Source: Pagrus major (lineage: Eukaryota > Chordata > Actinopteri > Spariformes > Sparidae). Taken from it: 64,000 bases of DNA. Shown piece by piece: positions 1,925 through 63,715 of the stretch. Position 1 is the stretch's first letter. Each line of letters starts with the position of its first letter. The position numbers and the translations under genes are program-made. The notes beneath the pieces are model-generated. The model was not told the origin of the DNA. It was given only the letters and a program-made list of their open reading frames with translations, and did not search any database. Where the stretch lies: NCBI RefSeq assembly GCF_040436345.1, contig NC_133236.1, positions 14,004,443 through 14,068,442 on the forward strand, written 5' to 3'.

Positions 1925-2805
1925 TCAGTCTTGATCGTATCGCCTCAATTTGTCGTCGGCCACTTCATCTTGGGATCTTTCCACACTGTTTGCATACCAA
2001 GTTAGAGAAGGGGGAACAAAAGAGAGGAATCAGTTAGTTAAATTATCAACAGAGGTTGATCAACAGAATCTTAATTGACAAATATTCAATAATTGAATAA
2101 TTTTGCAATAATTTTTCAAGCAAAATCTGACAGAAATTCACTGATTCCAGCTTCTGAAATGTGTCGACTTGCTTCTTTACCCTCTATTATATCATCGTGA
2201 ATTTAAATGGGTTGGACAAAATAAGGTAATTGAAGACATCATCTTGGGATCTGGTTAATACTGATGCTTTCTATGTTTGACAGGTTTGAGGCATTTCACA
2301 GACTTTTTATTTCTTTTATTCGTCTGTTTGAAATCAACAGAAAATATTCAGTAATACTTACCTTTTACGTCCGTTTCCTAAAGGGACAAAAAGATGAAAA
2401 TGACATAAATAAACATTAGCATAATATTATCACATTTGAAAATCTTTACATTTAGAACATTAATGATGCTCTCTTTACTAGTATAAGGTTTATTATCTGA
2501 GATGCCAGGACTACATAAAAGATTTTAGCTAAACACAGAACTAAATGAAGTTGTATGTAGTCAGTTAGTACAGTCAAGTGTGATTTGTTGATCTCAGACT
2601 AAAGTAGCCTGCTGTTTGTGTAAATCAGAGGTCAATCTGTTAACATCAACACAGTATGTAGGAACAGTTGTGACTTGCCGCCTCCACTGCCACCACCGCA
2701 ATTACTGTTAGCGCCACTACAACCGCCAGTTTGAGGAGCACTCTCCCCAGGTTCAGCCATGAGGACGACCAGCGTCAACACCAGAAAGATCATAACACAC
2801 TTCAT
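1925..2805 (-). CDS. Piscidin-like secreted peptide precursor, Gly-rich (A1)
   Basis: Predicted secreted host-defence-type peptide precursor. Exons on the minus strand: non-coding exon 1 about 3034-2940; exon 2 2806-2679 with ATG at 2805; a 16-nt exon 3 at 2377-2362; exon 4 from 1985 with stop at 1927-1925. Coding total 204 nt, 67 residues. Exon 2 encodes a hydrophobic leader beginning MKCVMIFLVL and ending MAEPGE, close to piscidin/moronecidin leaders, then a Gly/Ser/Asn-rich stretch with two Cys. Exon 4 ends in QDEVADDKLRRYDQD, like the C-terminal propiece of that family. Known piscidin genes also have four exons. Odd points: the exon 2 donor is GC (GCAAGT), and the middle part has none of the Phe/His-rich amphipathic helix of true piscidins. 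Poly(A) signal AATAAA at 1755-1750. The splice pattern is inferred from consensus sites and an unbroken frame. Confidence 0.72.
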
Positions 2806-2939
2806 CCTGAGGAACAAATCACAATGGCCACATCCAGAATCATTCACTGCCTTCATTCACCAGTGTCAAAGCTCATCACATCTCATCTAAAAGACTTTGC
2901 ATTTATTAAAGTAACATCAGGATTAAATTGACTTCTCAC

Positions 2940-3130
2940 CTTTCCACAGCTTGTTTGTCAGAACCAAAAAAAAACTGGTGTCACAGACAGCAAAGTGAGC
3001 ACTGTGAGATCTAGAGGTGATGTGGACGTCTTTGCTGAGCAGTCGTGAGTTACCCGTCTCTTTATAAGGATGGAGACGGAATAATCTTATCCAGTCATTC
3101 TGTATTTCTCAATGTGTTTTTCAAAGTCAA
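2940..3130 (-). promoter_or_regulatory. Promoter and exon 1 of piscidin-like gene A1
   Basis: Minus-strand TATA box TTATAAAG (core at 3066-3061) lies about 30 bp before the expected start of non-coding exon 1, whose donor AAAG/GTGAGAAG is at 2940/2939. Further upstream is ATTGAGAAAT, a loose C/EBP-like match. The whole block is nearly identical in the other complete units. Confidence 0.65.
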
Positions 3131-4346: not shown

Positions 4347-6190
4347 GGTAACCCTTTCTTTTACGGTACAGTAATTACTGGGTATTTACCCAGTAATTAG
4401 ATGGTAACAAAAACACGTTACCAGGTAATTACAACTGGTAACAAGAAGGTAAGTACAATGAAACTATGGACAAATTGCTGGGTATTTACCTTGTAACTGT
4501 TTGGTAAATTTTAGTGTGTTATTGGGTTATAAGCTGGTAATAAGCAGGTAGCTACAGTCCCCTAATTACTAGCTACTTACCCAGTGAATATATGGTAACA
4601 AAAAGATATTACTAGGTATTAACCACTCTAATAAGAAGGTAAGTACAATGAAACTATGGGCAAAGTACTAGGTATTTACCCACTAAATTATAAAGCATTC
4701 TTGGTAATCACTACTGGTAATAAGTGGGTAAAAACAGCAAATCTACGGCTGAAATACTCGGTACACTAGGTAAATTATACTTAAGATTGTAGATATTTTA
4801 CCTTTGCCATTGAATCAACACAAACTTGTACCATGTAGGTTCAGATATATTACTATGTAATACATGATCATTTACCTGGTAAGTAAACTGAAACTGTACT
4901 GTAAAAGAAAGCCTTGTTTGTTTGTACGTAATTACCATGTTCTTACACATATAATTTGTAATAGATAACTCATCTCACTGGTAAATAAACACTAACGTGT
5001 ACCATGTAGGTTCAGATATATTACTATGTAATACACGATCATTTACCTGGTAAGTAAACTGAAACTGTACTGTAAAAGAAAGCCTTGTTTGTTTCGACGT
5101 AATTACCATGTTCTTACACATATAATTTGTAATAGATAACTCACCTCACTGGTAAATAAACACTAACGTGTACCATGTAGGTTCAGATATATTACTATGT
5201 AATACACGATCATTTACCTGGTAAGTAAACTGAAACTGTACTGTAAAAGAAAGCCTTGTTTGTTTCCATGTAATTACCATGTTCTTACACATATAATTTG
5301 TAATAGATAACTCACCTCACTGGTAAATAAACACTAACGTGTACCATGTAGGTTCAGATATATTACTATGTAATACACGATCATTTACCTGGTAAGTAAA
5401 CTGAAACTGTACTGTAAAAGAAAGCCTTGTTTGTTTCCATGTAATTACCATGTTCTTACATCTATAATTTGTAATAGATAACTCACCTCACTGGTAAATA
5501 AACACTAACGTGTACCATGTAGGTTCAGATATATTACTATGTAATACACCATCATTTACCTGGTAAGTAAACTGAAACTGTACTGTAAAAGAAAGCCTTG
5601 TTTGTTTCCATGTAATTACCATGTTCTTACACATATAATTTGTAATAGATAACTCACCTCACTGGTAAATAAACACTAACGTGTACCATGTAGGTTCAGA
5701 TATATTACTATGTAATACACGATCATTTACCTGGTAAGTAAACTGAAACTGTACTGTAAAAGAAAGCCTTGTTTGTTTCCATGTAATTACCATGTTCTTA
5801 CATCTATAATTTGTAATAGATAACTCACCTCACTGGTAAATAAACACTAACGTGTACCATGTAGGTTCAGATATATTACTATGTAATACACCATCATTTA
5901 CCTGGTAAGTAAACTGAAACTGTACTGTAAAAGAAAGCCTTGTTTGTTTCCATGTAATTACCATGTTCTTACACATATAATTTGTAATAGATAACTCACC
6001 TCACTGGTAAATAAACACTAACGTGTACCATGTAGGTTCAGATATATTACTATGTAATACACCATCATTTACCTGGTAAGTAAACTGAAACTGTACTGTA
6101 AAAGAAAGCCTTGTTTGTTTCCATGTAATTACCATGTTCTTACACATGTAATTTGTAATAGATAACTCAACTCACTGGTAAATAAACACA
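4347..6190. repeat. Left inverted terminus with eight 171-bp repeats
   Basis: The outer ~480 bp is unique and rich in GGTAA/TTACC motifs. From about 4829 the block starting GTACCATGTAGGTTCAG recurs about every 171 bp, eight times (about 4829, 4999, 5170, 5341, 5512, 5683, 5853, 6024). The whole terminus is the inverse complement of 14984-17378. Single-base variants between repeats, such as TTTCCATG versus TTTCGACG, occur in both termini. Confidence 0.9.
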
Positions 6191-6645
6191 AACTTGAAAC
6201 TTATAACTCCACAACATTACTAAGTAAAACATGTCAAATTACCCAGTGAGTAAGATGCCACTGTACCATACAAAATGGAATGTTTAATCGTTTAAATGCA
6301 TAACAAAGGCACAGTAGAATGCAACAAGGTGTGCAAAAGTTTAAATTGTTGAAAACATGAGCAATATTAAATAATATAATAATAATACTTATTACGGCAG
6401 ATTTGGGATTCAAAGACAACACAACACCAAAAAAACAAACAAACATACAAAAAAAAAACAGAACTTTAAAATCTTAAATAAAGTATCCTGCTGTACACAA
6501 GTAGAGGTACTCTAAAACTGTAATTTCTGCACTTTCACCAGAACAGAACTGGCAGAACTGGCTTCAACTTCCTACAATAGCGAAAAACACATAACCCTTC
6601 CTAACATTGTAGAAGTGTCTACGACTCAGTGAGTAGTGTGAACCC

Positions 6646-9490
6646 TCACTTTCTGAATTTACATTTTATGGGTAGCAGCTCAGACTTTTTTTTCATTTGT
6701 TTAATTTTTTCTTCAAGAGGTGTATTACCCTCCAGGAAGGTCTTGCAGGTTTTGGCATACTTTCCTAAAGTGTCCTCCTCAGTGAACTCTGGCAGAAGCC
6801 CGAAGTCTTCACCCTCTGCAGCAATCAGTACTTCTGCAATGATTGCTGTCAAGGCGATTGTGTTTCTGTCCACGCTCAGCGATTCACAGCTGAGGCTGAC
6901 GCTCCTTTTACGCCTAAATTCTTTCAGAACAGCTCTGTATCGGTGTACGACGTCCTCTGGAGTATTAACTGCAAGACAGATTATAAAATATGATCTATTA
7001 ACATTATATCATGATCACAAATACATACATTGTATCATGTATATGATAATCCATCAATCCACTGATTGATTATCAAAGGCTTCAATGAAAACAAGTGCAC
7101 ACAACCGAGAAGGGTGAGCAAAACAGCGGAGAAGTGACCGGACGTACAGATTCACTTAATGATGCAATTTATAAATCAATAAAAGTCGTATTTTGACCAA
7201 CATTTGTGATACGTATGAAATAGGGATGTAAACAATTAATCAACTATCGATTAATTGTCGGTAAGAATTTAATAGATTAAATTAAATTAATTGCAGTTAA
7301 TTTATCCTTTCCACAGGAGTTTTTCTGTGAAATGTAAACAAGCAAAGCTGACATAATGTAGTGGGATCTCTGTTTAAAACATGTGCATAGCACACTGATC
7401 ACACAAGGGAGAGAGAGACAAAGCTGTTGTAGCCTACCTACTGGCCTCAGACATGTAGATCGCTAAAACACCAACAGCCAGTGAGTAACGAGTCAAAAAG
7501 CCACCGCCAGTACTCACTGCTGCCTGCAGTAGCCTGTTAATTCATGAACGCAGCTCAAGCTGACCTGGTGCCTCAGCACGGCGCCCACGCTTTGGTGAAG
7601 ACACCGAATCCCTCATTTTAGCCGGGTCGCTACCGAAGCTAAATTTAAAATTTAAAAAAATTTAAAAAAATTTAAAAACGCTCGTCACAGTGGAGCTGAG
7701 AACAGCGGAGTTTCCTCTACTACAGCTGAACAGATGACATCTGGTCAAGACATAAGGACCTGTCATAGTCTCATGGTGCATTTCATTATTATAAACTTAA
7801 ACCTCAAAGCTGTCAGTCCTCAGACTGTCCTGACCTGTCCCTGAACATCACACAGGGACAACATGGAGCTGTGTGATTTGTTACTGAGTCTTATTAATGT
7901 TTATATCAAGCTGGGTTCAACAAATCAGTTTATGCTAGTTTGATTTAAGCCTAGTGGCAGGAAAGACCAATTCACCTGTATGTATTGTGTATGGCCCATG
8001 CTTGGTCATGTTAGAAGTCAAGTTAGAGGAAAAATGTTTAGGGTGTTTTTACTGTTCTCAATTGTAAAAATGGGTCACATTGGACCCTCTGCATTATTAA
8101 AGGGTTAAATAACGTGTTACTTAAACATTTTTATTGTGCTCTTAAAGTAAACAAATAAATATTAGTGTAGAGCCCTGTATAACCAATGTTCAGCTTAAAT
8201 TTTCCTTCTAACAAACCTAAATTTCCCAGTGGAAAATTTAGGTTTCTCAGGAAAATGGCGGGAATAAGCGCTAAAGAAACAAGAATGGGCCTTACTTCTT
8301 CTGTTTAACTAATATACAGTGTTTCTAATAAATAGCTGTCATATTCATTTCTGCGTAGGACATGGTCAATATTGAAAATCAGTTTCTATCATAGTTGTTG
8401 ACAATACTCTGTCCTTGGCAATGCCCTGAACGATGAACTACAATGACTGTATTATACAATATAAGATGATTGTGTGTTTTATAATGATTAAAGTTACCTC
8501 TTTTCCCAAATTTTGCAGGGTTTTGCTTGTTATTCTTCCTCTTCTTCTTCCTCTTTTCTTCTTCTGAGGAGGAGTCTGACCCAGAGTCTGATGAGTCAGA
8601 CTCTGAGGAATCCATTAGCTTCCTTTTATCTGAGTCATTAACAGAGTACCAAAATTAGAAAATAATTATTCTTATTCTTTTTTCTGATTTTCCACCTAAA
8701 AAATGATCTTGTTGAGTTTTCTTATATTATTTGTGTGATATGGATACAAAATCCGGAATTCATTTAGAATATAGAAATAGCCTTCCATGTTGTTTTTGGT
8801 AAGAACACTGTCTGGATACCTTTAGAAGAAGTTGAGGGTCTGGTCTTAAGTTTCTCCTTAATGAAATCCCGCTCCTGTTTGAGTAGTCGGTTCTCCTCTT
8901 TGAGTAGTCGATTCTCCTCTTTTAAGAGTCTATAATCCTCCTGTAGGTTAGCCATGGTTGGGGCAGTGGTTGGAGCAGAGAGATGCGTAATCTCTTCAAC
9001 TAAAAAAGATGCAAAGGAAATTATTACATATTGATATATATATTAGGGCTGCAATGAGCTGCATAATAATACTGTCATTATCTGGAAGTGGTGGAGGGGC
9101 CAGAGAACAGGTTCTTGGAGTTAGTGTTTCAATTATCAACCAGAGGAGGGTGCATGATAACAATTTTACACCGGGTGGCCATTATACACTTAATGTTTTT
9201 ACTTTACATTTGCAGTATAATATATTATTGTCAGAACCTGTCTGGATAAACTGCACAGTACAGGCCATTAAATGTCAACCAAGGGAAGTACTCCTCATGA
9301 CTGGGGCAGTACCCCTTTTGAGCAAGGAAAACCCTATCTTGCCACCACACAAAATACTTTTGTAGTATTTACATCCTTTCCCATATAAAATTAAGTTACC
9401 TTCATTGCCAGACTGCAGCAAGTCTTCATCTGGTGGGTTGTTGTTTCTTTTTGATGTGTTGGTTCGTCTCTTACCCCGTGTGGATGGCAT
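6646..9490 (-). CDS. CCDC106-like coiled-coil protein carried by the transposon
   Basis: Four coding exons on the minus strand: 9490-9400, 8999-8820, 8629-8498 and 6968-6646 (stop TGA at 6648-6646). All junctions are GT-AG and phase 1, giving 726 nt, 241 residues, with no internal stop. Exon 1 is basic (PSTRGKRRTNTSKR). Exon 2 has a strong leucine coiled coil with repeated LLKEENR. Exon 3 has a Ser/Asp/Glu run followed by a Lys/Arg-rich nuclear-localisation-like stretch. Exon 4 has VDRNTIALTAIIAEV and ends near MKKKSELLPI, matching the C-terminal domain of vertebrate CCDC106 as I remember it (VDRNT ... IAEL ... LLPI). CCDC106 is a nuclear protein reported to bind p53. Its role in a transposon is unknown; regulation of transposition or nuclear targeting would be guesses. 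It is divergent from the transposase gene and about 3 kb from it. Confidence 0.75.
7224..8173. repeat. Probable hAT-derived fragments in CCDC106-like intron 3
   Basis: TAGGGATGTAAACAATTAATC at 7224 and the complement of CAGGGCTCTACACTAA near 8160-8173 both resemble fish hAT termini, but they do not match each other and no target duplication is visible. I read this as a composite or truncated pair of non-autonomous elements. The rest of the 1.5-kb intron shows no coding sequence. Confidence 0.3.
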
Positions 9491-10165
9491 GACTATATGT
9501 AAAAGAAAGAAAGAAAAAAAAAAAGACTAACATTGTGTTAGTGTCCTTTAGCACATGGACTGTAGCTAATGTTCTTAAGAAAACAAGAAGATTATTGATT
9601 CTTCTTTGGAGGAGGGTCTGGCGAGCGAGACTATTCATTAGGAGACAGCACAGCAGCCTTTGCTTGCTATTAAGCTATATCTAGCTCACCAAAAGACAGA
9701 AAAAAAACAAGAAACAGGCCGTATAAAAAGAAGTGGAAGTGTCAGAGACTCTGACAGCTTCAGGACCTCAGTGAGGATGGAAAATCTGATGAGGGAGAAA
9801 TATCACTGTGACTGTCCCCTCATTTCCACCTCATCAATCGTCTTCAACTGATAAAAGAGTAATTAGCATAAACACGAATGATTTTGTGTGCTGGCTCTAT
9901 GAAATAGCATCTCAGGCTGCAGAGTTGCTATGGCTCCAACACTGTACAGCGGGTTTTTCCTTGGCAGTGTGGGACGGAGAGAAATAATCCGCTCAGCACG
10001 TGGCTGCCAAAAAAAAAAGTCCCGAAAGCAGATATCAGCAGAATGTTTTTGTTAATATAAGTCCTAAATAGTCCTATTTTCCGTCAGCAATCACTTACAT
10101 GGAGTGTTTCAGCCGAAACACGAGTCTCTCCGTCACTCTGCTCTGCTGTAAACAGAGGAGAAAAA
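9491..10165. other. Spacer upstream of the CCDC106-like gene
   Basis: Lies between the start of the CCDC106-like gene and the nested hAT element and should hold its promoter. I see no clear TATA box and no convincing coding sequence. Confidence 0.4.
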
Positions 10166-10173
10166 CTTATATA

Positions 10174-11795
10174 CAAGGGCGTAGGTTTGGTCTCAGCTTT
10201 GGTAGTGACATTACCAGGGGTGGACTGGGACAAAAATTCAGCTCTGGCATTTTCTGTCCAGACCAGCCCACTATATTATCAGCGGACACCACGAAGAAGT
10301 CCACAAATCTCGTGGCGTCCTTTCTCACACATACTACAAAGGAGAGTCATATTCCTTGATAGCAGTTAACAAATAAAGCACGTAGCTATGAACTCAAGGA
10401 CTAAAACTGACAGCTATAGCAATCAACCAATCAATCTTTGTTCATTATAGTGTCAAATCACAACAGAAGTTATGTTATGACCAGGGGTGGGACGAGACTA
10501 ACGGGAAGAACCCAAAACCAGAGACGGGGTGGAGTTTTTCTCACATCATTACTTACATTTGCACAACAGTTGGTGCATTTCTCAAAACAATTAGTACAAA
10601 CTGCAAAACCTTGTTGATAACCTGCAAAAGCATGTCACATGCTCAAAATAGAGGTCATTCCTCAAAACCAAGTATTCCTATCAATGAAAGTGTGTGTGTC
10701 ATAAAAAAAAGTCCTGACACCATCATTTATGAACAAGGTAGTCAAATGGCTTTGTCGTGTTTTCATTAGGACACTTTACTAGTGTTTCCCAATGCAAAAA
10801 AGCCAGATCTTTGTGACCTGAAAATGCTCAAGACTATACACTAACACTATACACAGCCATTTGAAAACTACAGTAAAAGTAACACATTTACACACAAATT
10901 ATACCTATTAGATAGTTATCACCTCAGTAAACAATAAATGAATTGAAAGATTACAATAAATTCAATGGTAAATATTGCAAATTAAATGTATTATTTGCTA
11001 TAGGTTTACTTGTGTTTTGTATCTCTGTTTACAGCTCATCAGGCCACGTGAATGTTTACTGTTGCTATGGCAACAAGAGACCGCTGACGTTAGCATCTGT
11101 TAGCTAGCTTAGCTAAATCATCTGAACAATAATAACCCATAATATCACAATTCGGCGTATTTGAACAAAATCAACCACAACTACCAACAGTCACAGCCCT
11201 TTAACTCTGGGCTGATGTGCTGCCACATGTTAGATTGTCAAAGTTAGAAAATAACGACTTCAGTCCCTGAGGAGCTACGTTAGCATTAGCGGCAGCTACG
11301 TTAGCATTAGCGGCAGCTGCATTCATCAGTATGTTAGTGAGGTCGCATCACATTCAATGTAAAAACGTTTTTTTACTTTGTTTTGGACATGTCTCAAACA
11401 TTTAGCCGAGCCAGCCCCAGGCTGACGTTACTGACCCTGTCTGCCTCCACTCGCTCATCATCGTCAGGTCCTCCTCCCTCGTCTCCCGGCACAGCAGCAC
11501 CTGTGGCTGCTGGCGGGTCGGTGTCACTGGTCCCGGCACCAAAAAGCTCCGTCAACTTCGCACATTTAGCAGCCTCCACCTCCAGAGACTTCAACTTTTT
11601 AATCGCTGTTTCTCAGCTGTTTCTTCCTCTTATCCATTTCAAGTAGCGGACACAGTTTGGAAGATGCTCACTACTACCACTCACTAACGTTACTACTGGC
11701 TCAGCAGCAGACAAATATTGGTAGTGACTATTTTGCAATCCTCTAACATTGGTTGTGACATGTCACGACCATCTATATAGAAACCTACGCCCATG
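10174..11795. mobile_element. Nested hAT element with 8-bp duplication CTTATATA
   Basis: Starts CAAGGGCGTAGGTTT and ends with the complement of CATGGGCGTAGGTTT, flanked by CTTATATA at 10166-10173 and 11796-11803. An 8-bp duplication and CA-GGGCG termini are typical of hAT. It carries no full transposase. The minus strand near 11.4-11.65 kb has a relic frame (EAAKCAKLTELFG) like the N-terminus of hAT/TTF-type transposases, preceded by a stop. It inserted between the two genes of the Merlin-type element. Confidence 0.82.
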
Positions 11796-12539
11796 CTTAT
11801 ATATATATATTAACTTATATGCATCCCAAAGCCATGGAGAGAATCCATTGCTCTGGTTAAGTTTGTTCCCCGTTGCGTTACGTTGTTACTGAATTTTGGT
11901 AGTCAAAATGCAGTAGGCTACAACGAAGGAAAAACGTTATGCATCTAAATTTTCACAAAACAGTTCACTGTATCTTGCACAATCAACATACCTTAGCAAA
12001 ATGCTCCTTGAAGGGCGCTTTATTCACTCCCCGCCGTCTTCTTTTCTCATCAAATTTGACAGAGCAGCACCACAGGTCTGACGCATCTTCCGGTCTACAC
12101 AGAGAGCGCCAGCAAGTAAAAGACATTTCTGTTTAACAATCTACGTAGGTGTGACAGTACAAATTACATGTGAATGAATGGACTTGAAAATGTTAAATAA
12201 ATGTTACGTAATGAAAGTGACTTATGAAAGACTGGTGCTTTGGTGCACTCGTACAGTTTTTTTTTCACCAGCGACACTCTTATTGTGAAGTATTTCCGTT
12301 GTTGTACTCGGTGCATTGGTGCTGATTTTATTAAAGTGAAAAGGCCGGGAAATTCAGCAGGAACTGAGGACTGAAGAAGAGGAGAACGTTGCTGATATCT
12401 ATGAGGAGTTTCGAACCTGGTAAAAGTAGGTTGAAACTATTAAGCTAAATCAATATATAAAGGCAACACGATGATATTACAAATGCATTTAATGTTACAT
12501 CCGTTATATTTTGAATTGTTTTTTTTTCTTTCCAGTAAA

Positions 12540-14789
12540 ATGACACTGACAAGAACATTACTGCAGAAGTCAGCACAAGGTGGTAAAAACCTGATAAGAT
12601 GGCTTCAGAAGAACAGGCTGTTGGCAAGAAAAAAGCGATGCCCTGTCTGCAACAGCAGAATGAAACTGAAAAGAACAGACACAACAAAAGATGGATATAG
12701 GTGGTAAGGTCGACACATCATTGCTACACACAATCATATAAGTGTACTGTATCTTTAGCCTTCTTAAAATTGATCAGGTTTCAAAAGAAAATAAGCATTT
12801 TGTCATTCAGAATATTGAAATACCAACCAGACCTAAGTGGGATTATTGATATCTAGATCTGTCTGTGTTTTTTGGTCTATACTTAGGGTTAGTGGTTGAG
12901 GGTAATTACATGTAGAATGGCATTCAAGCATATTTTGTCTGCACAATCTCTTGACTAGAGTGGTGACTACAAGTCACCCACTTGAGATGTGCTGTAATCA
13001 ATGGATATGCAACCACGGACTTAATATGACAACTGTGCCCAATACTACACTTAGAAATAAGTAAAAATGCAATATTATTTATTGGTGAAAATGACTCTCT
13101 CCACACAAATATTTTAGGTGCACACACATGTATTTGGCATTTCATATAATATTAATAAATAAAATATCTAAAAATACATATATTTGTGTGTGCATCAGAA
13201 ATACATTTGTGAAACTTTTTTGGTTATTTGTGGATTTTTTTTACATTTATATTAAATATCAAATATATGTGTGTGCACTGAAAATATTTGTGTGGAGAGA
13301 GTCATTTATATAAATCTTAACATGTATTTGTGAATCTTTTTGTGTGCATTTATTAATATTGAGACTAATCTAACTACACTAAATCCTTCAAACGCATCAT
13401 GTTGAAGCATAAAACCAAAATAATGAAACAAGTCACTTTTCAAAGACTTTTAGAGGTCATTATGAATGAACAATAGTGTTTTGCCTTCAAAAACACATAA
13501 GAAACATGGTAAATTTAATTTATCAAGTCAACACATTGAATTAATGCTTATTTCTCTGTGCCATCTGCAAATTTTGTTACAGGATCTGTAGAAAGACAGC
13601 CCATAAGAGCAGGGGCATCACAAGATCCATCAGGGAGGGCTCCATATTCTCTGGGTCACACATTCCGTTGCCAAGTTGGCTGACAATCATGCACAGGTCA
13701 GGGTCCTTCTCCGTGTCTGTCTCTCAGTGTATTTTTTTTTATGCTGTACGAATGTGGCCTATTATTGCTGACCTGTTAAGACCACATTAGCAAATTTTAT
13801 GTAAAAATCTAATTAGATTCTTCATTGTTGTTTTGTGATTATAATCAGGCTGATCAGTTGCTAATATACTTTTTTTTGTCTTAGTTTGTCACAGGGTTTG
13901 CGAAAGCGGCAAATCGACCTGATAGAGGATGGATGTGGGAGCAGCAAGTCACTGACTCGGGTGACAACACTCTTACGAAAAATATGCGTTAAAGCTGTCA
14001 GGCGACTGGAGAGAAGACGAGGAATGCGCATTGGAGGGAGGAGAGCTTTTGTCGCAATTGATGAGAGCAAATTCAGACACAAGAGAAAGGTACTGTTTGT
14101 TTTAGTAAAATTGCAATTTATGCTTTGAATAGTAGATTACATGTGAATTACCATGGCAATATAAATACCTATCATCAGTCATTGGTATTGTGATATAAAA
14201 ATTTCATACTGTTTCATCTCTAGTTTGTACCATGACCATGAGGGTGAATCTAACGTACATCATCATCCAACATCAAATGATACATTTTCGGTGGAATACC
14301 TTTATATATGACATGCTTATTTTTCAGTACGGACGTGGACGACGAGGACACACCTGGCAAAGGCGCTCATGGGTCTTTGGCATGCTGGAGGTGAAGAGGT
14401 CCAGACGACGTCCCATCTTGAAATTGGTGAAAAATCGGTCAAGAAGGCGATTACTGCCAATAATACAAAAGTATATTAGACCGGGCACTGAGGTGATCAG
14501 TGATTGCTGGAGGGCCTACAATAGTTTGTCTAATCGAGGGTACATTCACTATCAGGTGAATCACCAAAGATATTTTGTCCACCCTGGGACTGGTGCGCAT
14601 ACGCAACACATTGAACGGGCATGGCGGAATTATAAAGAGGACATCTACAGATACCGGGGCAACTTTTCAGAGGAGGCTTTGAGGATGAACCTAAGGTTCA
14701 TTGAATGGAATCACTGGCTTGGAAAAAAACACAAAGAGGGCATTCTTGGACGCTTGTTTGAAGATATCCAAGCATGTTACAAAGTGTAA
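12540..14789 (+). CDS. Merlin/IS1595-type DDE transposase
   Basis: Four coding exons: 12540-12703 (after a candidate non-coding exon ending 12419 and an acceptor at 12535), 13583-13696, 13885-14089 and 14328-14789. Total 945 nt, 314 residues, GT-AG junctions, no internal stop. The N-terminus has WLQKNRLL then CPVC, and after the first junction CRKTAH with SIREGSIF, which is the zinc ribbon of IS1595-type transposases. The catalytic core is FVAIDESKF (first Asp), WVFGMLEV, EVISDCWRAY (second Asp), the signature VNHQRYFVHP with GAHTQHIERAW (Glu), then NYKEDIYRYRG. All three acidic residues and the zinc ligands are present, so it could be active. Family length is about 270-320 residues. An upstream ATG at 12401 gives only a short peptide. 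A poly(A) signal follows at 14976. Confidence 0.9.
13091..13306. mobile_element. Palindromic MITE in transposase intron
   Basis: About 216 bp with near-perfect inverted arms of about 46 bp beginning ATGACTCTCTCCACACAAAT. It lies in the intron between the first and second coding exons of the Merlin-type transposase. No coding sequence. Superfamily not assigned. Confidence 0.65.
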
Positions 14790-14975
14790 CAAACATACAT
14801 AATGTTTCAGCGTTTTTTCAGACTATTTGGTCTGTGTTTTTAGTTCCTGTTTTATTTTGAAGTTCTGTGCCCTGTTTTCCTGTGTCATGGTCTGTGTCTT
14901 TTGGTCTGTCTCAAGTTCCTGTTTTATTTTGAAGTTTCGTGTCCTGGCTTCCTCTGTGCTCCCTGCTCGTGATGA

Positions 14976-14981
14976 AATAAA
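14976..14981 (+). terminator. Poly(A) signal of the Merlin-type transposase
   Basis: AATAAA about 190 bp after the transposase stop codon and just before the right inverted terminus begins. Confidence 0.55.
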
Positions 14982-14983
14982 GA

Positions 14984-17378
14984 ATGATCATGTATTACAT
15001 AGTAATATATCTGAGCCTACATGGTACATGTTTGTGTTTATTTACCAATGAGGTGAGTTATCTATTACAAATTATAGATGTAAGAACATGGTAATTACAT
15101 GGAAACAAACAAGGCTTTCTTTTACAGTACAGTTTCAGTTTACTTACCAGGTAAATGATCGTGTATTACATAGTAATATATCTGAACCTACATGGTACAC
15201 GTTAGTGTTTATTTACCAGTGAGGTGAGTTATCTATTACAAATTATAGATGTAAGAACATGGTAATTACATGGAAACAAACAAGGCTTTCTTTTACAGTA
15301 CAGTTTCAGTTTACTTACCAGGTAAATGATCGTGTATTACATAGTAATATATCTGAACCTACATGGTACACGTTAGTGTTTATTTACCAGTGAGGTGAGT
15401 TATCTATTACAAATTATATGTGTAAGAACATGGTAATTACATGGAAACAAACAAGGCTTTCTTTTACAGTACAGTTTCAGTTTACTTACCAGGTAAATGA
15501 TGGTGTATTACATAGTAATATATCTGAACCTACATGGTACACGTTAGTGTTTATTTACCAGTGAGGTGAGTTATCTATTACAAATTATATGTGTAAGAAC
15601 ATGGTAATTACGTCGAAACAAACAAGGCTTTCTTTTACAGTACAGTTTCAGTTTACTTACCAGGTAAATGATCGTGTATTACATAGTAATATATCTGAAC
15701 CTACATGGTACACGTTAGTGTTTATTTACCAGTGAGGTGAGTTATCTATTACAAATTATATGTGTAAGAACATGGTAATTACGTCGAAACAAACAAGGCT
15801 TTCTTTTACAGTACAGTTTCAGTTTACTTACCAGGTAAATGATGGTGTATTACATAGTAATATATCTGAACCTACATGGTACACGTTAGTGTTTATTTAC
15901 CAGTGAGGTGAGTTATCTATTACAAATTATATGTGTAAGAACATGGTAATTACATGGAAACAAACAAGGCTTTCTTTTACAGTACAGTTTCAGTTTACTT
16001 ACCAGGTAAATGATGGTGTATTACATAGTAATATATCTGAACCTACATGGTACACGTTAGTGTTTATTTACCAGTGAGGTGAGTTATCTATTACAAATTA
16101 TAGATGTAAGAACATGGTAATTACATGGAAACAAACAAGGCTTTCTTTTACAGTACAGTTTCAGTTTACTTACCAGGTAAATGATCGTGTATTACATAGT
16201 AATATATCTGAACCTACATGGTACACGTTAGTGTTTATTTACCAGTGAGGTGAGTTATCTATTACAAATTATATGTGTAAGAACATGGTAATTACATGGA
16301 AACAAACAAGGCTTTCTTTTACAGTACAGTTTCAGTTTACTTACCAGGTAAATGATGGTGTATTACATAGTAATATATCTGAACCTACATGGTACACGTT
16401 AGTGTTTATTTACCAGTGAGGTGAGTTATCTATTACAAATTATAGATGTAAGAACATGGTAATTACATGGAAACAAACAAGGCTTTCTTTTACAGTACAT
16501 TTTCAGTTTACTTACCAGGTAAATGATCATGTATTACATAGTAATATATCTGAACCTACATGGTACACGTTAGTGTTTATTTACCAGTGAGGTGAGTTAT
16601 CTATTACAAATTATATGTGTAAGAACATGGTAATTACGTCGAAACAAACAAGGCTTTCTTTTACAGTACAGTTTCAGTTTACTTACCAGGTACATGATCG
16701 TGTATTACATAGTAATATATCTGAACCTACATGGTACACGTTAGTGTTTATTTACCAGTGAGATGAGTTATCTATTACAAATTATATGTGTAAGAACATG
16801 GTAATTACGTACAAACAAACAAGGCTTTCTTTTACAGTACAGTTTCAGTTTACTTACCAGGTAAATGATCATGTATTACATAGTAATATATCTGAACCTA
16901 CATGGTACAAGTTTGTGTTGATTCAATGGCAAAGGTAAAATATCTACAATCTTAAGTATAATTTACCTAGTGTACCGAGTATTTCAGCCGTAGATTTGCT
17001 GTTTTTACCCACTTATTACCAGTAGTGATTACCAAGAATGCTTTATAATTTAGTGGGTAAATACCTAGTACTTTGCCCATAGTTTCCTTCTTATTAGAGT
17101 GGTTAATACCTAGTAATATCTTTTTGTTACCATATATTCACTGGGTAAGTAGCTAGTAATTAGGGGACTGTAGCTACCTGCTTATTACCAGCTTATAACC
17201 CAATAACACACTAAAATTTACCAAACAGTTACAAGGTAAATACCCAGCAATTTGTCCATAGTTTCATTGTACTTACCTTCTTGTTACCAGTTGTAATTAC
17301 CTGGTAACGTGTTTTTGTTACCATCTAATTACTGGGTAAATACCCAGTAATTACTGTACCGTAAAAGAAAGGATTACC
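14984..17378. repeat. Right inverted terminus with twelve 171-bp repeats
   Basis: Inverse complement of the left terminus. The block marked by CATGGTAC recurs near 15019, 15191, 15361, 15531, 15702, 15873, 16044, 16215, 16387, 16557, 16730 and 16901, twelve units against eight on the left. The outer ~480 bp matches the left end with few differences, one being a short deletion near 17080 that lost GTACTTA. Confidence 0.9.
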
Positions 17379-17732: not shown

Positions 17733-17825
17733 TCAGTCTTGATAGTAAAGCTTCCATTTGTCGTCGGCCACTTCATCTCCGGGTGTTCTACATGTGCAAT
17801 TGCAGTTTAATCTGCACTGGGATCT
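17733..17825 (-). pseudogene. Piscidin-like exon 4 relic with lost acceptor
   Basis: Exon 4 of a module A copy with stop at 17735-17733. It has the Cys-rich insertion RLNCNCTCRTP also seen in the gene at 27.6-28.6 kb, followed by DEVADDKWKLYYQD. Two bases are deleted at the 3' splice site (GCAAAC-TGTGG instead of GCAAACAGTGTGG), removing the AG. The poly(A) signal is changed from AATAAA to AATGAA near 17555. Exons 1-3 are gone; a hAT composite starts at 17879. Confidence 0.65.
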
Positions 17826-17878
17826 TTCCACAGTTTGCATACCAAGTTAGAGAAGGGGGAACAAAAGAGAGGAATCAG

Positions 17879-27636: not shown

Positions 27637-28557
27637 TCAGTCTTGATAGTATAGCTTCCATTTGTCGTCAGCCACTTCATCTTCGGGTGTTCTACATGTG
27701 CAATTGCAGTTTAATCTATTCTGGGATCTTTCCACACTGTTTGCATACCAAGTTAGAGAAGGGGGAAGAAAAGAGAGGAATCAGTTAGTTAAATTATCAA
27801 CAGAGGTCAATCAACAGAATCTTAATTGACAAATATTCAATAATTAAATAATTTTGCAATAATTTTTCAAGCAAAATCTGGCAGAAATTCACTGATTCCA
27901 GCTTCTGAAATGTGTCGACTTGCTTCTTTACCCTCTATCATATCATCATGAATTTAAATGTGTTGGACAAAATAAAGTAATTGAAGACATCAACTTGGGA
28001 TCTGGTTAATACTGATGCTTTCTATGTTTGACAGGTTTGAGGCATTTCACAAAGTCTTTTTATGTCTTTTATTCGTCTGTTTGAAATCAACAGAAAATAT
28101 TCAGTAATACTTACCTTGTACCTGCGTTTCCTAAAGGGACAAAAAGATGAAAATGAGATGAATAAACATCAGTATATTATTATCACATTTGAAAATCTTT
28201 ACATTTAGAACATTAATGATGCTCTTTACTTAGTATAAGGTTTATTATCTGAAATGCCATGACTACATAAAAGATTTTAGCTAAACACAGAACTAAATGA
28301 AGTTGTATGTAGTCAGTTAGTACAGTCAAGTGTGATTTGTTGATCTCAGACTAAAGTAGCCTGCTGTTTGTGTAAATAAGAGGTCAATCTGTTAACATCA
28401 ACTCAGTATGTAGGAACACTTGTGACTTGCCGCCTCCACTCCTACCACTGCAATCACTGTTAGCGCTGTTACAACCGCCAGTTTGAGGAGCACTCTGCCC
28501 GGGTTCAGACATGAGGACGACCAGCATCAACACCAGAAAGATCATAACACACTTCAT
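27637..28557 (-). CDS. Piscidin-like precursor with Cys-rich exon 4 (A3)
   Basis: Exon 1 about 28793-28699, TATA at 28825-28820; exon 2 28558-28431 with ATG at 28557; exon 3 28130-28115 (16 nt, GAAACGCAGGTACAAG); exon 4 from 27736, stop at 27639-27637. Coding total 243 nt, 80 residues, 13 longer than its neighbours. The extra length is an in-frame block in exon 4, NRLNCNCTCRTP, placing three closely spaced Cys before EDEVADDKWKLYYQD. Exon 2 encodes the usual leader (with MSEPGQ instead of MAEPGE) and a Ser/Gly/Asn-rich stretch with two Cys. Exon 2 has a GC donor. Poly(A) signal at 27477-27472. Five Cys in the putative mature part could form disulfides, which is inference. Confidence 0.7.
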
Positions 28558-30508: not shown

Positions 30509-31389
30509 TCAGTCTTGATCGTATCGCCTCAATTTGTCGTCGGCCACTTCATCTTGGGATCTTTCCACACTGTTTGCATACCAAGTTAGAGAAGGGGGAA
30601 CAAAAGAGAGGAATCAGTTAGTTAAATTATCAACAGAGGTCGATCAACAGAATCTTAATTGACAAATACTCAATAATTGAATAATTTTGCAATAATTTTT
30701 CAAGCAAAATCTGACAGAAATTCACTGATTCCAGCTTCTGAAATGTGTCAACTTGCTTCTTTACCCTCTATTATATCATCGTGACTTTAAATGGGTTGGA
30801 CAAAATAAGGTAATTGAAGACATCATCTTGGGATCTGGTTAATACTGATGCTTTCTATGTTTGACAAGTTTGAGGCATTTCACAAAGTCTTTTTATGTCT
30901 TTTATTCGTCTGTTTGAAATCAACAGAAAATATTCAGTAATACTTACCTTCTACGTCCGTTTCCTAAAGGGACAAAAAGATGAAAATGACATAAATAAAC
31001 ATTAGTATAATATTATCACATTTGAAAATCTTTACGTTTAGAACATTAATGATGCTCTTTACTAGTATAAGGTTTATTATCTGAGATGCCAGGACTAAAT
31101 AAAAGATTTTAGCTAAACACAGAAATAAATGAAGTTGTATGTAGTCAGTTAGTACAGTCAAGTGTGATTTGTTGATCTCAGACTAAAGTAGCCTGCTGTT
31201 TGTGTAAATCAGAGGTCAATCTGTTAACATCAACACAGTATGTAGGAACACTTGTGACTTGCCGCCTCCACTGCCACCACCGCAATTACTGCCAGCGCCA
31301 CTACAACCGCCAGTTTGAGGAGCACTCTCCCCGGGTTCAGCCATGAGGACGACCAGCGTCAACACCAGAAAGATCATAACACACTTCAT
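30509..31389 (-). CDS. Piscidin-like secreted peptide precursor, Gly-rich (A4)
   Basis: Exon 1 about 31619-31524 with TATA at 31651-31646; exon 2 31390-31263, ATG at 31389; exon 3 30963-30948 (16 nt, GAAACGGACGTAGAAG); exon 4 from 30569, stop 30511-30509. Coding 204 nt, 67 residues. Differs from A1 by only a few residues (for example Gly for Asn before SNC, and Arg for Lys in the micro-exon). Leader and QDEVADDKLRRYDQD tail as in A1; GC donor after exon 2. Poly(A) signal 30349-30344. If the GC donor is skipped, reading into intron 2 adds KSQVFLHT and stops shortly after, giving a leader-plus-mature product without the acidic tail. Confidence 0.72.
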
Positions 31390-42319: not shown

Positions 42320-42339
42320 ACACCCTGTGACACTTCTCC

Positions 42340-45183: not shown

Positions 45184-45253
45184 CAAGACAAAGATTTTGA
45201 TGGCCCGCCATGGAAGGGGACATCACGGACTACGTCACTGCCTGCCCTATGTG

Positions 45254-47660: not shown

Positions 47661-48551
47661 TGTGCACGGTGCAAAACCTCCTGTCGCCCCACTTCAGGCC
47701 TGCTTCGCCCTCTCCCCGTGCCAGGACGGCCCTGGTCGGACATTTCTTTGGACTTTGTCACCGGACTCCCACCTTCGGAAGGTAACACAACCATTCTCAC
47801 AGTTGTAGATCGTTTCTCTAAAATGGTTCACTTTATTCCCCTGCCGAAGCTGCCCTCAGCCAAGGAGACGGCGGAGGTAATGCTGCAACATGTGTTTCAT
47901 CTCCATGGTCTGCCTAAGGATATTGTCTCCAACCAGGGTCCCCAGTTTGTGGCACAGTTCTGGCAGACTTTTTGTTCGCTCCTGGGAGCCACGGCCAGCC
48001 TGTCCTCAGGTTATCACCCACAATCCAAAACAGTCAGACGCTCTCTACTGTGCCACTCGGACCAGTATAAGGTGGCGGCAGACAGGTGACACTCCAAGGG
48101 ACCCAGTTATCAGGAGGGACAAAAAGTGTGGCTTTCTACAAAGAACCTGCCCCTCCGTGTGGAAGCCAGGAAGCTTGCCCCCAGGTTTGTGAGTCCATTT
48201 CCTATTTCAAAAGTTATTAACCCTGTTGCTGTGAGGCTTAGACTCCCCAGGACCATGAGGGTACACCCGACATTCCACATCAGCCAGGTGAAACCCTCCA
48301 GAGAAAGCACTCTGGTCCCTGCCTCCAGACCCCCGCCTCCCCCCCGGTTTGTGGACGGGGGCCCTGTCTTCACTGACATCTGGCTGTTCGCCAACGGGGA
48401 CGTGGGTTCCAGTACATGGTTGACTGGGAGGACTACGGTCCGGAGGAGCACTCCTGGGTGCATGCTAGACGCATCATAGACCCTGACCTTATCCGAGAAT
48501 TCCACCGTGAGCATTCAGGGGAGCCGAGGCCGCCAGGTGTCGGCCGTTGAG
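47661..48551 (+). pseudogene. Gypsy integrase core and chromodomain
   Basis: [17 protein letters not shown] with [15 protein letters not shown] and [13 protein letters not shown] form the integrase core; the usual Asp in SDRGPQF is replaced by Asn, and the third-acid block is frameshifted after SGYHPQSK. Further on [13 protein letters not shown] and, in another frame, [19 protein letters not shown], a chromodomain, near 48418-48480. The chromodomain identifies the element as a chromovirus. Confidence 0.85.
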
Positions 48552-50434: not shown

Positions 50435-51317
50435 TCAGTCTTGATCGTATCGCCTCAATTTGTCGTCGGCCACTTCATCTTGGGATCTTTCCACACTGTT
50501 TGCATACCAAGTTAGAGAAGGGGGAACAAAAGAGAGGAATCAGTTAGTTAAATTATCAACAGAGGTCGATCAACAGAATCTTAATTGACAAATATTCAAT
50601 AATTGAATAATTTTGCAATAATTTTTCAAGCAAAATCTGACAGAAATTAACTGATTCCAGCTTCTGAAATGTGTCGACTTGCTTCTTTACCCTCTATTAT
50701 ATCATCGTGAATTTAAATGGGTTGGACAAAATAAGGTAATTGAAGACATCAATTTGGGATCTGGTTAATACTGATGCTTTCTATATTTGACAGGTTTGAG
50801 GAATTTCACAAAGACTTTTTATGTCTTTTATTCGTCTGTTTGAAATTAACAGAAAATATTCAGTAATACTTACCTTCTACGTCCGTTTCCTAAAGGGACA
50901 AAAAGATGAAAATGACATAAATAAACATTAGTATAATATTATCACATTTGAAAATCTTTGCATCGAGAACATTAATGATGCTCTCTTTACTAGTATAAGG
51001 TTTATTATCTGAGATGCCAGGACTAAATAAAAGATTTTAGCTAAACACAGAACTAAATGAAGTTGTATGTAGTCAGTTAGTACAGTCAAGTGTGATTTGT
51101 TGATCTCAGACTAAAGTAGCCTGCTGTTTGTGTAAATCAGAGGTCAATCTGTTAACATCAACTCAGTATGTAGGAACACTTGTGACTTGCCGCCTCCACT
51201 GCCACCACCGCAATTACTGCCAGCGCCACTACAACCTCCAGTTTGAGGACCACTCTCCCCGGGTTCAGCCATGAGGAGGACCAGCGTCAACACCAGAAAG
51301 ATCATAACACATTTCAT
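50435..51317 (-). CDS. Piscidin-like secreted peptide precursor, Gly-rich (A5)
   Basis: Exon 1 about 51547-51452 with TATA at 51579-51574; exon 2 51318-51191, ATG at 51317; exon 3 50889-50874 (16 nt, same as A4); exon 4 from 50495, stop 50437-50435. Coding 204 nt, 67 residues. Near-copy of A4: leader has VLLMAEPGE instead of VVLMAEPGE and the next residues are SGPQT rather than SAPQT. GC donor after exon 2. The 3'UTR lacks about 25 bp present in A4 (CTCAAACTATATCTTC), and the poly(A) signal is at 50291-50286. Confidence 0.72.
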
Positions 51318-54280: not shown

Positions 54281-54734
54281 TCAGTCTTGATAGTATTGCC
54301 TCAATTTATCGTCGGCCACTTCATCTTGGGATCTTCCCCATCTGTCTCCATACCAAGTTAGAGGAGGGGGAACAAAAGAGAGGAATCAGTTTGTTAAATT
54401 ATCAACAGAGGTCGATCAACAGAATCTTAAATGACACATATTTTAATGATTGAATAATTGTGCAATAATTTTCAAACATAAATGACAGAAATTTACTGAT
54501 TCCAGCTTCTGAAATGTGTCGACTTGCTTCTTTACCCTCTATTATATCATCGTGAATTTAAATGGGTTGGACAAAGTAAGGTAGTTGAAGACATCAACTT
54601 GGGATCTGGTTAATACTGATATTTGCTATGTTTGACAGGTTTGAAGCATCTCACAAAGTTTTTTTATTTCTTTTATTCGTCTGTTTGAAATCAACAAAAA
54701 ATATGCAGCATTACTTACATTCTATCTGTGAGTA
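54281..54734 (-). pseudogene. Piscidin-like gene lacking leader exon
   Basis: Exon 4 (54341-54281, tail QDEVADDKLRQYYQD) and the 16-nt exon 3 (54734-54719, TACTCACAGATAGAAT) are intact with AG acceptors and a GTAAGT donor, in frame with each other. Exon 2 should lie near 55.03 kb but is replaced: the sequence continues from the old donor position (CTTAAGTCACAA, donor lost) into unrelated sequence also present at 33.2 kb. Poly(A) signal at 54112-54107. Micro-exon starting TAC groups it with the gene at 58 kb. Confidence 0.65.
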
Positions 54735-57238: not shown

Positions 57239-58116
57239 TCAGTCTTGATAGTATCGCCTCAATTTATCGTCATCCACTTCATCTTGGGTTTTTCCAATTT
57301 TACCTCTGCATCCGAATCTATACCAAGTTAGAGAAGGGGGGCGGGGGGAAATAGAGAGAAATAAGTCAAATTATCAACAGAGGTCATTCAACTGAATCTT
57401 AATTGAGGAATATACTAATAATTGAATATTTTTACAATAAATTTTCAAGCAAAATCTGACAGAAATTCACTGATTCCAGCTTCTGAAATGTGTCGACTTG
57501 CTTCTTTACCCTCTATTATATCATCATGAATTTAAATGGGTTGGACAAAATAAGGTAATTGAAGACATCAACTTGGGATCTGGTTAATACTGATGCTTGC
57601 TATGTTTGACAGGTTTGAGGCATTTCACAAAGTCTTTTTATGTCTTTTATTTGTCTGTTTGAAATCAACAGAAGATATTCAGCATTACTTACCTTACACC
57701 TCCAAGTACTAAAGGGACAAAAAGATGAAAATGACATAAATAAACATTAGTATAATATTATCACATTTGAAAATCTTTACATTTAGAACATTAATGATGC
57801 TCTCTTTACTTAGTTTTAGGTTTATTATCTGAGATGCCAGGACTACATAAAAGATTTTAGCTAAACACAGAACTAAATGAAGTTGTATGTAGTCAGTTAG
57901 TACAGTCAAGTGTGATTTGTTGATCTCAGACTAAAGTAGCCTGCTGTTTGTGTAAATCAGAGGTCAATGTGTTAACATCAACTCAGTATGTATGAACACT
58001 TGTGACTTACCACACGGGGGACGTCTGGGGACAGGGCGACGTCGAGACTGACTCTCCCCGGGTTCAGCCATGAGGACGACCAGCGTCAACACCACAAAGA
58101 TCATAACACACTTCAT
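57239..58116 (-). CDS. Piscidin-like precursor, Arg/Pro-rich with Cys pair (A6)
   Basis: Exon 1 about 58345-58251, TATA 58377-58372; exon 2 58117-58011, ATG at 58116; 16-nt exon 3 57708-57693 (TACTTGGAGGTGTAAG); exon 4 from 57317, stop 57241-57239. Coding 201 nt, 66 residues. Leader matches the others (MKCVMIFVVL ... MAEPGE), but exon 2 then encodes SRRRPVPRRPPC in place of the Gly-rich stretch, 21 nt shorter. Exon 4 begins FGCRGKIGKT before the tail QDEVDDDKLRRYYQD. The middle is strongly cationic with two Cys, a composition typical of Pro/Arg-rich antimicrobial peptides. Exon 2 has a normal GT donor (GTAAGT), unlike the Gly-rich genes. Poly(A) signal 57069-57064. Function as a host-defence peptide is inferred. 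Confidence 0.72.
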
Positions 58117-62112: not shown

Positions 62113-63636
62113 TTTAGTTAATCCGTAGCCTATTTACATATTCCAAGTCGACTCAGTAGCGTCACACACTGCTGTAATTTTCTTTTCTTTTTTTGGAGGA
62201 ATTGACGCATTTACTTAACGTATACCGATGCGTGAGGTGGGGCTGTGATTGGATGGTGACAGGTGTCGTCGATGATTCTCAAGTGTCGTGATCAGCACTG
62301 CTGCTGTTGTTGTTGTATCAGTCAGTGTTTAGATCAGCGTAGCAGTCAATAAACGGGACAAGAGAGGTCACGTACGGGACAAATAAATTAGGCCCAATAT
62401 ATGGGACGTCCCGGCTAATACGGGACAGTTGGCAACCCTACCCTGGAGTCGCTGACACACACGCCCCTCCAGCACGTTGGCAATCAGCGCCTGCTGATAA
62501 GCCCTGCTCTCAACGCTACCTGCTGCCAGATGATTGCGTCATTCACATGCGGTAGATGGCTCAGTCGAAGTTTACTAGCTTGTCTCTAGTGTACCCGTGT
62601 TCTCAGTCTCAAGACTTAACTTTGTTTTTTTCTGCCTGTGGTGTTCTCCTGCATGCTTGCCTGCCTGTGTCTCCGTTCCCAGCGAACCAACTCTCTGCAC
62701 ATCTGCGACATGATGCCCTTGCCCTGCATTCTCAGGAGCGTCTGCACACCGCGCAGCACACCAGCGCCACTGTGAGCCACCGCTCCCCCTCCCTTCACCT
62801 CTCGGACCTAGACCGCAGCCTGAACAGCTTCCCTCACCTGCTGAAACCCTGTACTTTTCAATAAATTGCCTGAAGTATCTGATCCTGCCTCGTGTCTGCT
62901 TTTGAGTTCTGTAAGACTTCATTCGTTGTAACAGGTTACTCACCACTGAGTTTTCTATCTTACATTTTTGCCAAATTTCAAGCAAAAATGCCAAAAATGT
63001 GATGATGCAAGCTTCTCAAATGAAGGAAATAGTAAATTTTTCCTCATTTTACATTTTAATACCTTAAATTCCTTTGTCTCTTTTGGAAACAGCCAACAGT
63101 ACAAATTCCATTTACACAATGATCATCTTCTTTCTCAAGAAATTGTTATTTTGACTGTTGTTCTGATGCTTTATAGACCAAATGATTTGTCTTTTGATGG
63201 AGGAAATGCCAGAATTGAATCATTTCCAAAGTGCTGCTTTACCAGAGACACAAGTACATTCAGAAACAGAAAGAAATAGGAAGAGTGTTCATTTTATAAA
63301 GTGGTCCCACCAACACACACATTATTTAGATCTACTTAATATAAACATTTACATCTGACTTAATGAAAAACAATGTTCTCAATCATCATCACCAATAAAA
63401 TTACAAGCGCATGTTCACTTAAATAAGACCACAAAACAGAGACGGCCTTTTGTAATGCAGCTTTATTCAGCAGGATAGTTTTCACTATCAAGCAATTTTA
63501 CATTCTCTAACATCAGTTGGAGCTGTGACTAAAGTCACTACATCTCAAGGGCTCCATGTTTACTCATCCAATTATTTCTTGCTTTGCAAAGCACAAAGAT
63601 ATAGCTCAAACTATATCTTCAAAATCAAGAACAGAC

Positions 63637-63715
63637 TCAGTCTCGATAGTATCGCCTCAATTTATTGCCGTTCCATTCACCTGGGGGTTTTCCGCCGCTC
63701 AGTCTGCATCCGACG
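63637..63715 (-). CDS. Piscidin-like gene, exon 4 only (A7, cut by window edge)
   Basis: Exon start at 63715 after a TATAG acceptor, stop at 63639-63637; 79 nt, same length and phase as A6 exon 4. It encodes VGCRLSGGKPPGEWNGN then KLRRYYRD: the acidic QDEV...DD part of the tail is replaced by neutral residues. AATAAA at 63477-63472. Exons 1-3 would lie beyond 64000. Confidence 0.6.

Follow-up and report, generated by a model that had tools for sequence, protein, structure and literature searches.

Piscidin-family genes of Pagrus major with diversified cysteine-containing middles and tandem micro-exon cassettes

Background

Frog-skin peptide precursors are encoded by gene families in which a conserved leader precedes a changing mature peptide. 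A related arrangement under a different leader family, that of the piscidins, is described here for Pagrus major, where the part that appears to be swapped consists of three short coding stretches between conserved introns. The window, the whole stretch of DNA that was analysed, comprises 64,000 nucleotides (C22:14004443-14068442, C22 being contig NC_133236.1) of a 786-Mb assembly of 25 contigs. Bare coordinates up to 64000 are window positions, and eight-digit gene names are leader positions on C22.

Excerpts of the piscidin literature describe a fast-evolving mature part, a slowly evolving leader and positive selection (PMC2830478), and genes of four exons with an exon 3 of 19-49 bp, three- and five-exon genes being exceptions (PMC7369796). 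Three length classes are distinguished in another excerpt, the longest of which (class III) is predicted to be not purely helical (PMC4995043). Two passages of PMC10215159 differ, one presenting piscidins without cysteine and the other presenting them as arginine- and cysteine-rich. Plant alpha-hairpinins share the motif XnC-X3-C-Xn-C-X3-C-Xn, which alone does not classify a peptide (PMC7191063, in excerpt), and they are produced from modular precursors (PMC11591084, in excerpt).

The window lies inside a 200-kb array of 22 leaders (C22:13.878-14.080 Mb). In the explanation that we regard as probable, a piscidin gene frame of promoter, 22-residue signal peptide, introns and acidic tail would have been duplicated many times and reused to secrete new peptides. 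Leader and tail would enclose three short coding stretches that diversify and swap among copies, with cysteine (Cys) positions and splice phases retained. An internal duplication may then have joined the acceptor of an exon 4 to the donor of an exon 2, giving rise to tandem micro-exon cassettes in some copies. As far as gene models built from the DNA can tell, duplication, diversified middles with kept Cys and phases, and one to seven extra cassettes are all present.

Gene Frame and Family Membership

Five complete genes (A1, A3, A4, A5 and A6), every one on the minus strand, are found in the window (Table 1). In each, a TATA box and a short untranslated exon 1 are followed by exon 2, which encodes the 22-residue leader and the first part of the middle, by an exon 3 of 16 nt, and by exon 4, which encodes the remaining middle and the acidic tail. 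Splice phases are identical among the five, and all five frames are open from ATG to stop. A preliminary description of the window had proposed a constant signal peptide, promoter and exon-4 end around a variable middle, and both the models and the comparison of A4 with A6 below bear this out. Its account of the middles also holds: they are Gly/Ser/Cys-rich in A1, A4 and A5, while A3 has the same kind with an added NCNCTC block and A6 has a middle rich in Arg and Pro that contains a Cys pair. Its statement that the amphipathic helix is lacking agrees with the helical moments of A1, A3 and A6 given below. A further gene that it listed, A7 (~63715), has its exon 4 in the window; it is not a full gene there, as its leader lies at C22:14068914.

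Membership in the piscidin family is indicated by several features. All nine precursors tested match Pfam PF08107 (pleurocidin) above the cut-off over residues 1-22 only, which in each of the five window genes correspond to model positions 1-22 of 42. The conserved signal peptide MKC...VVLMAEPGE is present, the complete window genes have the four-exon layout with untranslated exon 1 and tiny exon 3, and the C-terminal prodomain resembles that of Sparus P0001, a dicentracin-like protein in which a basic middle, helix-like by eye, is followed by the same kind of tail (SQDEVEYDKSKLSYQD). Top-scoring named homologues of the window precursors are Sparus aurata proteins. Tandem clusters and a fast mature part are likewise shared with piscidins, moronecidins and pleurocidins, and the P. 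major genome also has helix-like members (L001-L005), among which L001 and L002 resemble gilthead piscidins 1 and 2 as printed in an excerpt of PMC12255565.

The middles differ from those of piscidins in being Cys-paired, Gly/Ser-rich, Pro-rich or hairpin-like, with no evident amphipathic helix. Cys pairs occur in the middles of all five complete window genes, although a second in-frame AG 12 nt downstream in A6 exon 4 would, if used, remove the second Cys. The largest 18-residue helical moment, a crude index computed for A1, A3 and A6, is 0.29, 0.42 (tail included) and 0.39, respectively, whereas exon 2 reaches 0.51 and 0.74 in two helical paralogues that this genome also contains; middles on C23, discussed below, reach 0.48. 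In place of a Cys-free amphipathic alpha-helix, the window genes show a Pfam match that stops at residue 22, Cys pairs and, in A1, A3 and A6, moments of 0.29-0.42. The window genes are members of the piscidin gene family whose mature peptides are not classical piscidins. An array of ordinary helical piscidins was rejected because of the end of the Pfam match at residue 22 and the Cys pairs.

Sparus aurata ‘Piscidin’ P0008 has the same leader and a non-helical Cys loop, C-KGNPPI-C, and is the sole C-x6-C member among the 27 of 54 homologues compared. Its relatives in P. major are L032 and L033 (C22:12.246 and 12.250 Mb). The loop sequence of P0008 differs from those described here, and internal cassettes are not visible in its record. 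Homologue searches with the A6 middle (residues 23-66) and the A3 middle (23-80) gave no candidate, using an insensitive procedure that required three shared 5-residue words and similar length. The A6 precursor has no match in the PDB, three middles have none in NCBIfam (a weak result, as that library is bacterial and archaeal), and an Rfam scan of the window found no match.

Genome-wide, 44 PF08107 leader matches were found: 22 in the main array, 11 in C22:12.228-12.285 Mb, 6 in C23:25.015-25.103 Mb, 2 on C15, 1 on C18 and 2 on C21. The 12.2-Mb cluster contains helix-like middles (L003-L005) together with Cys middles, e.g. INCKGNPPICFQ (L032) and VKKVCHIIVCRGSGLGRTC (L007). With an intron-2 query, at least 40 genomic copies are recovered (40 of 73 candidates scored). 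An open frame follows all 22 leaders of the main array, three of the genes (14068914, 13891504 and 13878310) requiring a non-standard exon-2 or exon-3 splice site. The usual exon-3 acceptor is lost in 14068914 and 13891504 (TTAC for TTAG), where a 7-nt exon 3 keeps the frame and an AC acceptor is another possibility; a small deletion in 13878310 makes a shifted donor necessary. The tail of A5 (14055759) was taken from the window gene model, the array-wide scan having missed it. Of the 22 leaders outside the main array, the six C23 genes were fully modelled and six others were tried: 12261 and 12271 have open frames, C15_20155 has a stop within the tail, and the models of 12246, 12250 and 12243 are partial. 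In a list compiled by hand, each of 10 exon-2 and 7 exon-3 lengths is 1 mod 3; two mis-modelled lengths, 117 (later 121, which is also 1 mod 3) and 18 in L033, are not in this list.

Uneven Divergence of Middle and Frame

The contrast between frame and middle can be seen in A4 and A6. These genes differ at 7/284 sites in the 5' region and intron 1 and at 8/297 in intron 2 (2.5-2.7%), at 1/65 in the leader, 4/45 in the tail and 5/199 in the 3' untranslated region. By comparison, 22/43 aligned sites differ in the exon-2 middle (51%, with 18 gap columns), 7/16 in exon 3 (44%) and 6/16 at the start of exon 4 (38%, with 10 gap columns). Intron 3 also diverges (42/378), chiefly in the last 150 nt adjoining exon 4, so that the frame stands out most clearly from the middle in the 5' region and intron 2.

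Rates were compared in 12 of the 16 Gly-type genes, near-identical paralogues which have the same exon types; the four with other exon 3 or 4 types were left out. Nonsynonymous and synonymous differences per site (pN and pS) are 0.0125 and 0.043 in the leader, 0.101 and 0.110 in the middle, and 0.007 and 0.052 in the tail, with noncoding values of 0.0227 for intron 2, 0.0153 for intron 3 and 0.0085 for the 5' 270 nt. Variable sites number 22/75 in the middle as against 5/66 in the leader (Fisher p 0.001), 5/60 in the tail (p 0.002) and 53/646 in introns 2 and 3 (p 9e-7), these p values being rough since paralogue sequences are not independent. High pN and pS together in the middle fit replacement of segments no less well than selection on codons. 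The use of pN/pS alone as proof of positive selection was rejected, the ratio being 0.92, and neutral drift of the middles was rejected since the introns are slower.

Tandem Cassettes

Further modules stand between one leader and one tail in 3 of the 22 array genes, all outside the window (14080154 with seven, 13919250 with three and 13903324 with two), and in 6 of 6 C23 genes, with one to seven extra in-frame cassettes each. These genes depart from the four-exon layout through their extra internal micro-exons, in contrast to the four exons published for piscidins (PMC7369796, in excerpt). A module consists of a hybrid exon, whose start is exon-4-like and whose end is exon-2-like, followed by an exon 3. 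On C22 the hybrid exon is 32 nt long and encodes [F/Y][G/I]CxHxxPxC, and the exon 3 that follows has 16, 22, 28 or 40 nt. Over all multi-cassette genes, the cassettes as modelled are 30-72 nt, most commonly 48. The predicted precursor of 14080154, 195 residues long, contains repeats such as FGCIHRRPPCGNGLGG and FICMHIPSPCGLPLPPPPPP, and A6 resembles a one-module version (RRPPC-VLGGVR-FGC). Gly/Ser exon 2s, including those of A1, A3, A4 and A5, end in a GC donor (g/GCAAGT) in 16 of the 22 array leaders, while a GT donor is found in the other six array exon 2s and in 22 hybrid exons.

The six C23 leaders differ from that of A4 at 0-2 of 66 sites. Each C23 gene has one or three extra modules, and five of the six frames are open. 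All six middles contain C-x3-C-x(10-11)-C-x3-C, doubled in two genes, a motif that does not occur in the five window genes. Two hairpin-type units are separated in C23_25032 by NRREAQEAQRRQ, a linker with dibasic sites, and in the open frame of C23_25026 by LNEGPEAQLQQ, without dibasic sites. This Cys spacing is like that of plant alpha-hairpinins and of scorpion and cone-snail potassium-channel toxins; the likeness lies in the Cys motif of the gene sequence alone, the C23 gene frame being that of a piscidin, and convergence is likely. A PDB sequence search with one C23 middle returned nothing up to E 10, and its precursor matches only PF08107, together with a sub-threshold match of the leader to DIM. 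Neither internal cassette arrays nor hairpinin-like middles are reported for piscidin genes in the portions of the open-licence PMC literature that were seen.

Among 21 of the 22 modules (12 on C22 and 9 on C23), hybrid exons diverge more than the intron 2 beside them: 0.172 versus 0.047 within C22 (exon higher in 55/66 pairs), 0.444 versus 0.033 within C23 (36/36) and 0.693 versus 0.082 between the clusters (108/108). For the final 150 nt of intron 3 the corresponding values are 0.046, 0.044 and 0.114. With one more C23 module counted, a Cys codon TGC near the end of the hybrid exon is kept in 22/22. Under a Jukes-Cantor (JC) correction the exon/intron distance ratio in C23 is about 20. Transition/transversion ratios are 0.49 in C23 exons and 1.90 in C23 introns, but 2.03 in C22 exons and 0.57 in C22 introns.

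These contrasts bear on the idea that the copies are relaxed, decaying duplicates whose middles drift because they are no longer needed. Dead array units (12 intron-2 starts with TT for GT), the stop in C23_25032 and a middle pN/pS near 1 would all fit such decay. Drift alone cannot, however, make exons approximately 4-20 times faster than the adjoining introns, and frames, Cys codon, leader and tail have been retained, so that this explanation is improbable.

For the multi-cassette genes, the most likely product is one precursor in which all cassettes are spliced in order, which would give repeated Cys-loop or hairpin peptides. Signal cleavage and tail removal would then yield host-defence peptides at epithelia and in granulocytes, a role suggested by piscidin ancestry; by analogy, the peptides may act in defence as those of frog skin do. 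Secretion, processing and disulfide formation are likewise predicted. The polyprotein is favoured by the even number of C-x3-C units in 6/6 C23 genes, as complete hairpins would result only with all exons joined, and by the one dibasic linker. Alternatively, the spliceosome might pick one or few cassettes per transcript, in the manner of Dscam, and so obtain many peptides from each gene. The hybrid exon and exon 3 together have a length divisible by three as modelled, which would allow a module to be skipped without a frameshift, and introns are strongly conserved between modules. Against such a choice, one C23 hairpin spans four exons and the even unit number fits the joining of all cassettes; we consider alternative use unlikely, though the strongest of the competing explanations.

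Several observations weigh against the favoured explanation. Middle pN/pS, at 0.92, does not exceed 1, as synonymous sites are fast there too, and the exon/intron contrast is smaller on C22, where 11/66 pairs do not show the exon as higher. Even parity is weak evidence, as the six C23 genes share ancestry, and skipping of whole modules would preserve the frame too. C23_25032 has its stop in the last exon 3, directly after the last Cys unit, and C23_25026 has one hybrid exon without the usual acceptor AG, for which an in-frame substitute exists. In 14080154 the first two hybrid exons have likewise lost this AG, and their models begin at an in-frame AG 18 nt downstream. The Gly-type middle is weakly charged (+2 in A1 before QDEV), which is unusual for an antimicrobial peptide.

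Probable Exchange between Genes

Across the array, exon types recur in varying combinations. A Gly exon 2 is joined to NGRR/NGRK and a short exon 4 in 12 genes, to NAGT and an NCNCTC/NCDCTC exon 4 in two, to a polyproline exon 3 and a long NCNCTC/NCDCTC exon 4 in 13984927, and to polyproline and many modules in 14080154. In 13984927, the 12 NGRR/NGRK genes are nearest at both ends, over the opening 150 nt of intron 2 (1.5%, versus 4.4% for six polyproline modules) and the closing 150 nt of intron 3 (1.1%, versus 7.5%). From the midpoint of intron 2 to its end, polyproline modules are nearest (3.3% versus 6.6% for NGRR/NGRK genes), although NGLGG modules are nearly as close (4.1%); the last 60 nt give 5.6% versus 12.1%, with NGLGG at 9.7%. 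Positions 1-200 of intron 3 do not discriminate, which like the NGLGG value counts against the favoured explanation, and unit 13891504 was classed as polyproline through a wrong exon-3 guess. This one gene is a mosaic, most simply explained by a conversion tract that includes exon 3.

Ordinary positive selection acting through point mutation on the mature peptide, as described for piscidins and with no exchange, would account for a fast mature part and a slow leader (PMC2830478, in excerpt), and changes in C22 hybrid exons are mainly transitions. It does not readily explain an exon/intron ratio near 20 on C23, a mosaic tract carrying an entire exon 3, the varied exon combinations or a middle pN/pS that is not above 1. 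Selection of this kind is judged a little less likely still than alternative cassette use. Collapsed or mis-joined repeats in a repetitive array might also imitate cassettes, but module copies are unlike each other, splice sites and frames fit, and the same architecture recurs, with other exon sequences, on another chromosome; an assembly artefact is very improbable.

The term “exchanged”, used for the cassettes in the preliminary description, receives direct support from the mosaic gene and the differing exon combinations, and its reused scaffold with new middles is supported more strongly by the genome-wide comparison than by the window alone. The outcome that it named as refuting, equal rates in leader and middle, is not seen: the middle is faster, though its pN/pS is not above 1.

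Other Features of the Window and Array

Table 1. Exons and related features of piscidin-family units in the window.
Feature	Description	Position	Strand
A1 promoter and exon 1	TATA region and untranslated exon 1; sequence nearly the same in all five complete genes	2938..3077	-
A1 exon 2	ATG at 2805; leader (2805-2740) and Gly/Ser/Cys middle start; GC donor	2679..2805	-
A1 exon 3	16 nt	2362..2377	-
A1 exon 4	constant tail DEVADDKLRRYDQD	1925..1985	-
Orphan exon 4	NCNCTC type; usual acceptor AG lost	17733..17831	-
A3 exon 2	ATG at 28557; Gly/Ser/Cys type; GC donor	28431..28557	-
A3 exon 3	16 nt	28115..28130	-
A3 exon 4	long type with NCNCTC	27637..27736	-
A4 exon 2	ATG at 31389; GC donor	31263..31389	-
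A4 exon 3	16 nt	30948..30963	-
A4 exon 4		30509..30569	-
A5 exon 2	ATG at 51317; GC donor	51191..51317	-
A5 exon 3	16 nt	50874..50889	-
A5 exon 4		50435..50495	-
Leaderless gene remnant (~54.7-54.3 kb), exon 3		54719..54734	-
Leaderless gene remnant (~54.7-54.3 kb), exon 4	open frame	54281..54341	-
A6 exon 2	ATG at 58116; leader and QSRRRPVPRRPPC; GT donor	58011..58116	-
A6 exon 3	16 nt; VLGGV	57693..57708	-
A6 exon 4	FGCRGKIGK and tail; start resembles hybrid exons of multi-cassette genes	57239..57317	-
A7 exon 4	VGCRLSGGKPPGEWNGN...; leader beyond right window edge	63637..63715	-

Dead companion units, e.g. window 33891-33166, point to birth and death of units. In 12 array copies the start of intron 2 has TT for the GT donor, and the same scan finds no leader before them. 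A diverged exon-4 copy lies 0.5-1 kb upstream of each complete window gene (e.g. 32360-31960, 29528-29134, 26679-26287 and 3767-3375), and similar motifs precede two genes of the 12.2-Mb cluster (L005 and L008); such copies may derive from an old gene end duplicated along with the genes, or may be regulatory. L031 (C18:8831800-8833800) is a lone copy with the middle QRGRQPPRGIVFPSRC, and its intron 2 turns unrelated, by eye, after approximately 230 nt.

Mobile elements lie among the array units. An insertion of about 13 kb (window 4347-17378) occupies a spacer between piscidin units and is flanked by an 8-bp target duplication (GAGTGTTC). Its long inverted ends are 99% identical over the outer 0.3 kb and 98% over 1.6 kb, and consist mostly of 171-bp tandem repeats. 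An open frame of the insertion encodes a transposase domain of IS1595-like type (E 1e-19); from these features we take it to be Merlin-like. Pieces of an LTR-type (long terminal repeat) retroelement, with reverse transcriptase, RNase H and integrase domains, lie between array units at window ~37000-48100.

Implications

Tentatively, and with less assurance than the overall explanation, the locus can be regarded as a cassette platform in which tandem modules stand under a piscidin leader, introns are conserved while coding modules are replaced, the products may be Cys-loop or alpha-hairpinin-like polyproteins, and cassettes may be passed between genes by conversion. How animals rapidly invent defence peptides is an open question. 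Here exons outpace their adjoining introns within one genome, so that it becomes directly testable whether the changes arose by point mutation or by conversion and what part splicing plays. If the multi-cassette genes make polyproteins, a fish would have reached a modular precursor design and a Cys spacing known from plant alpha-hairpinins.

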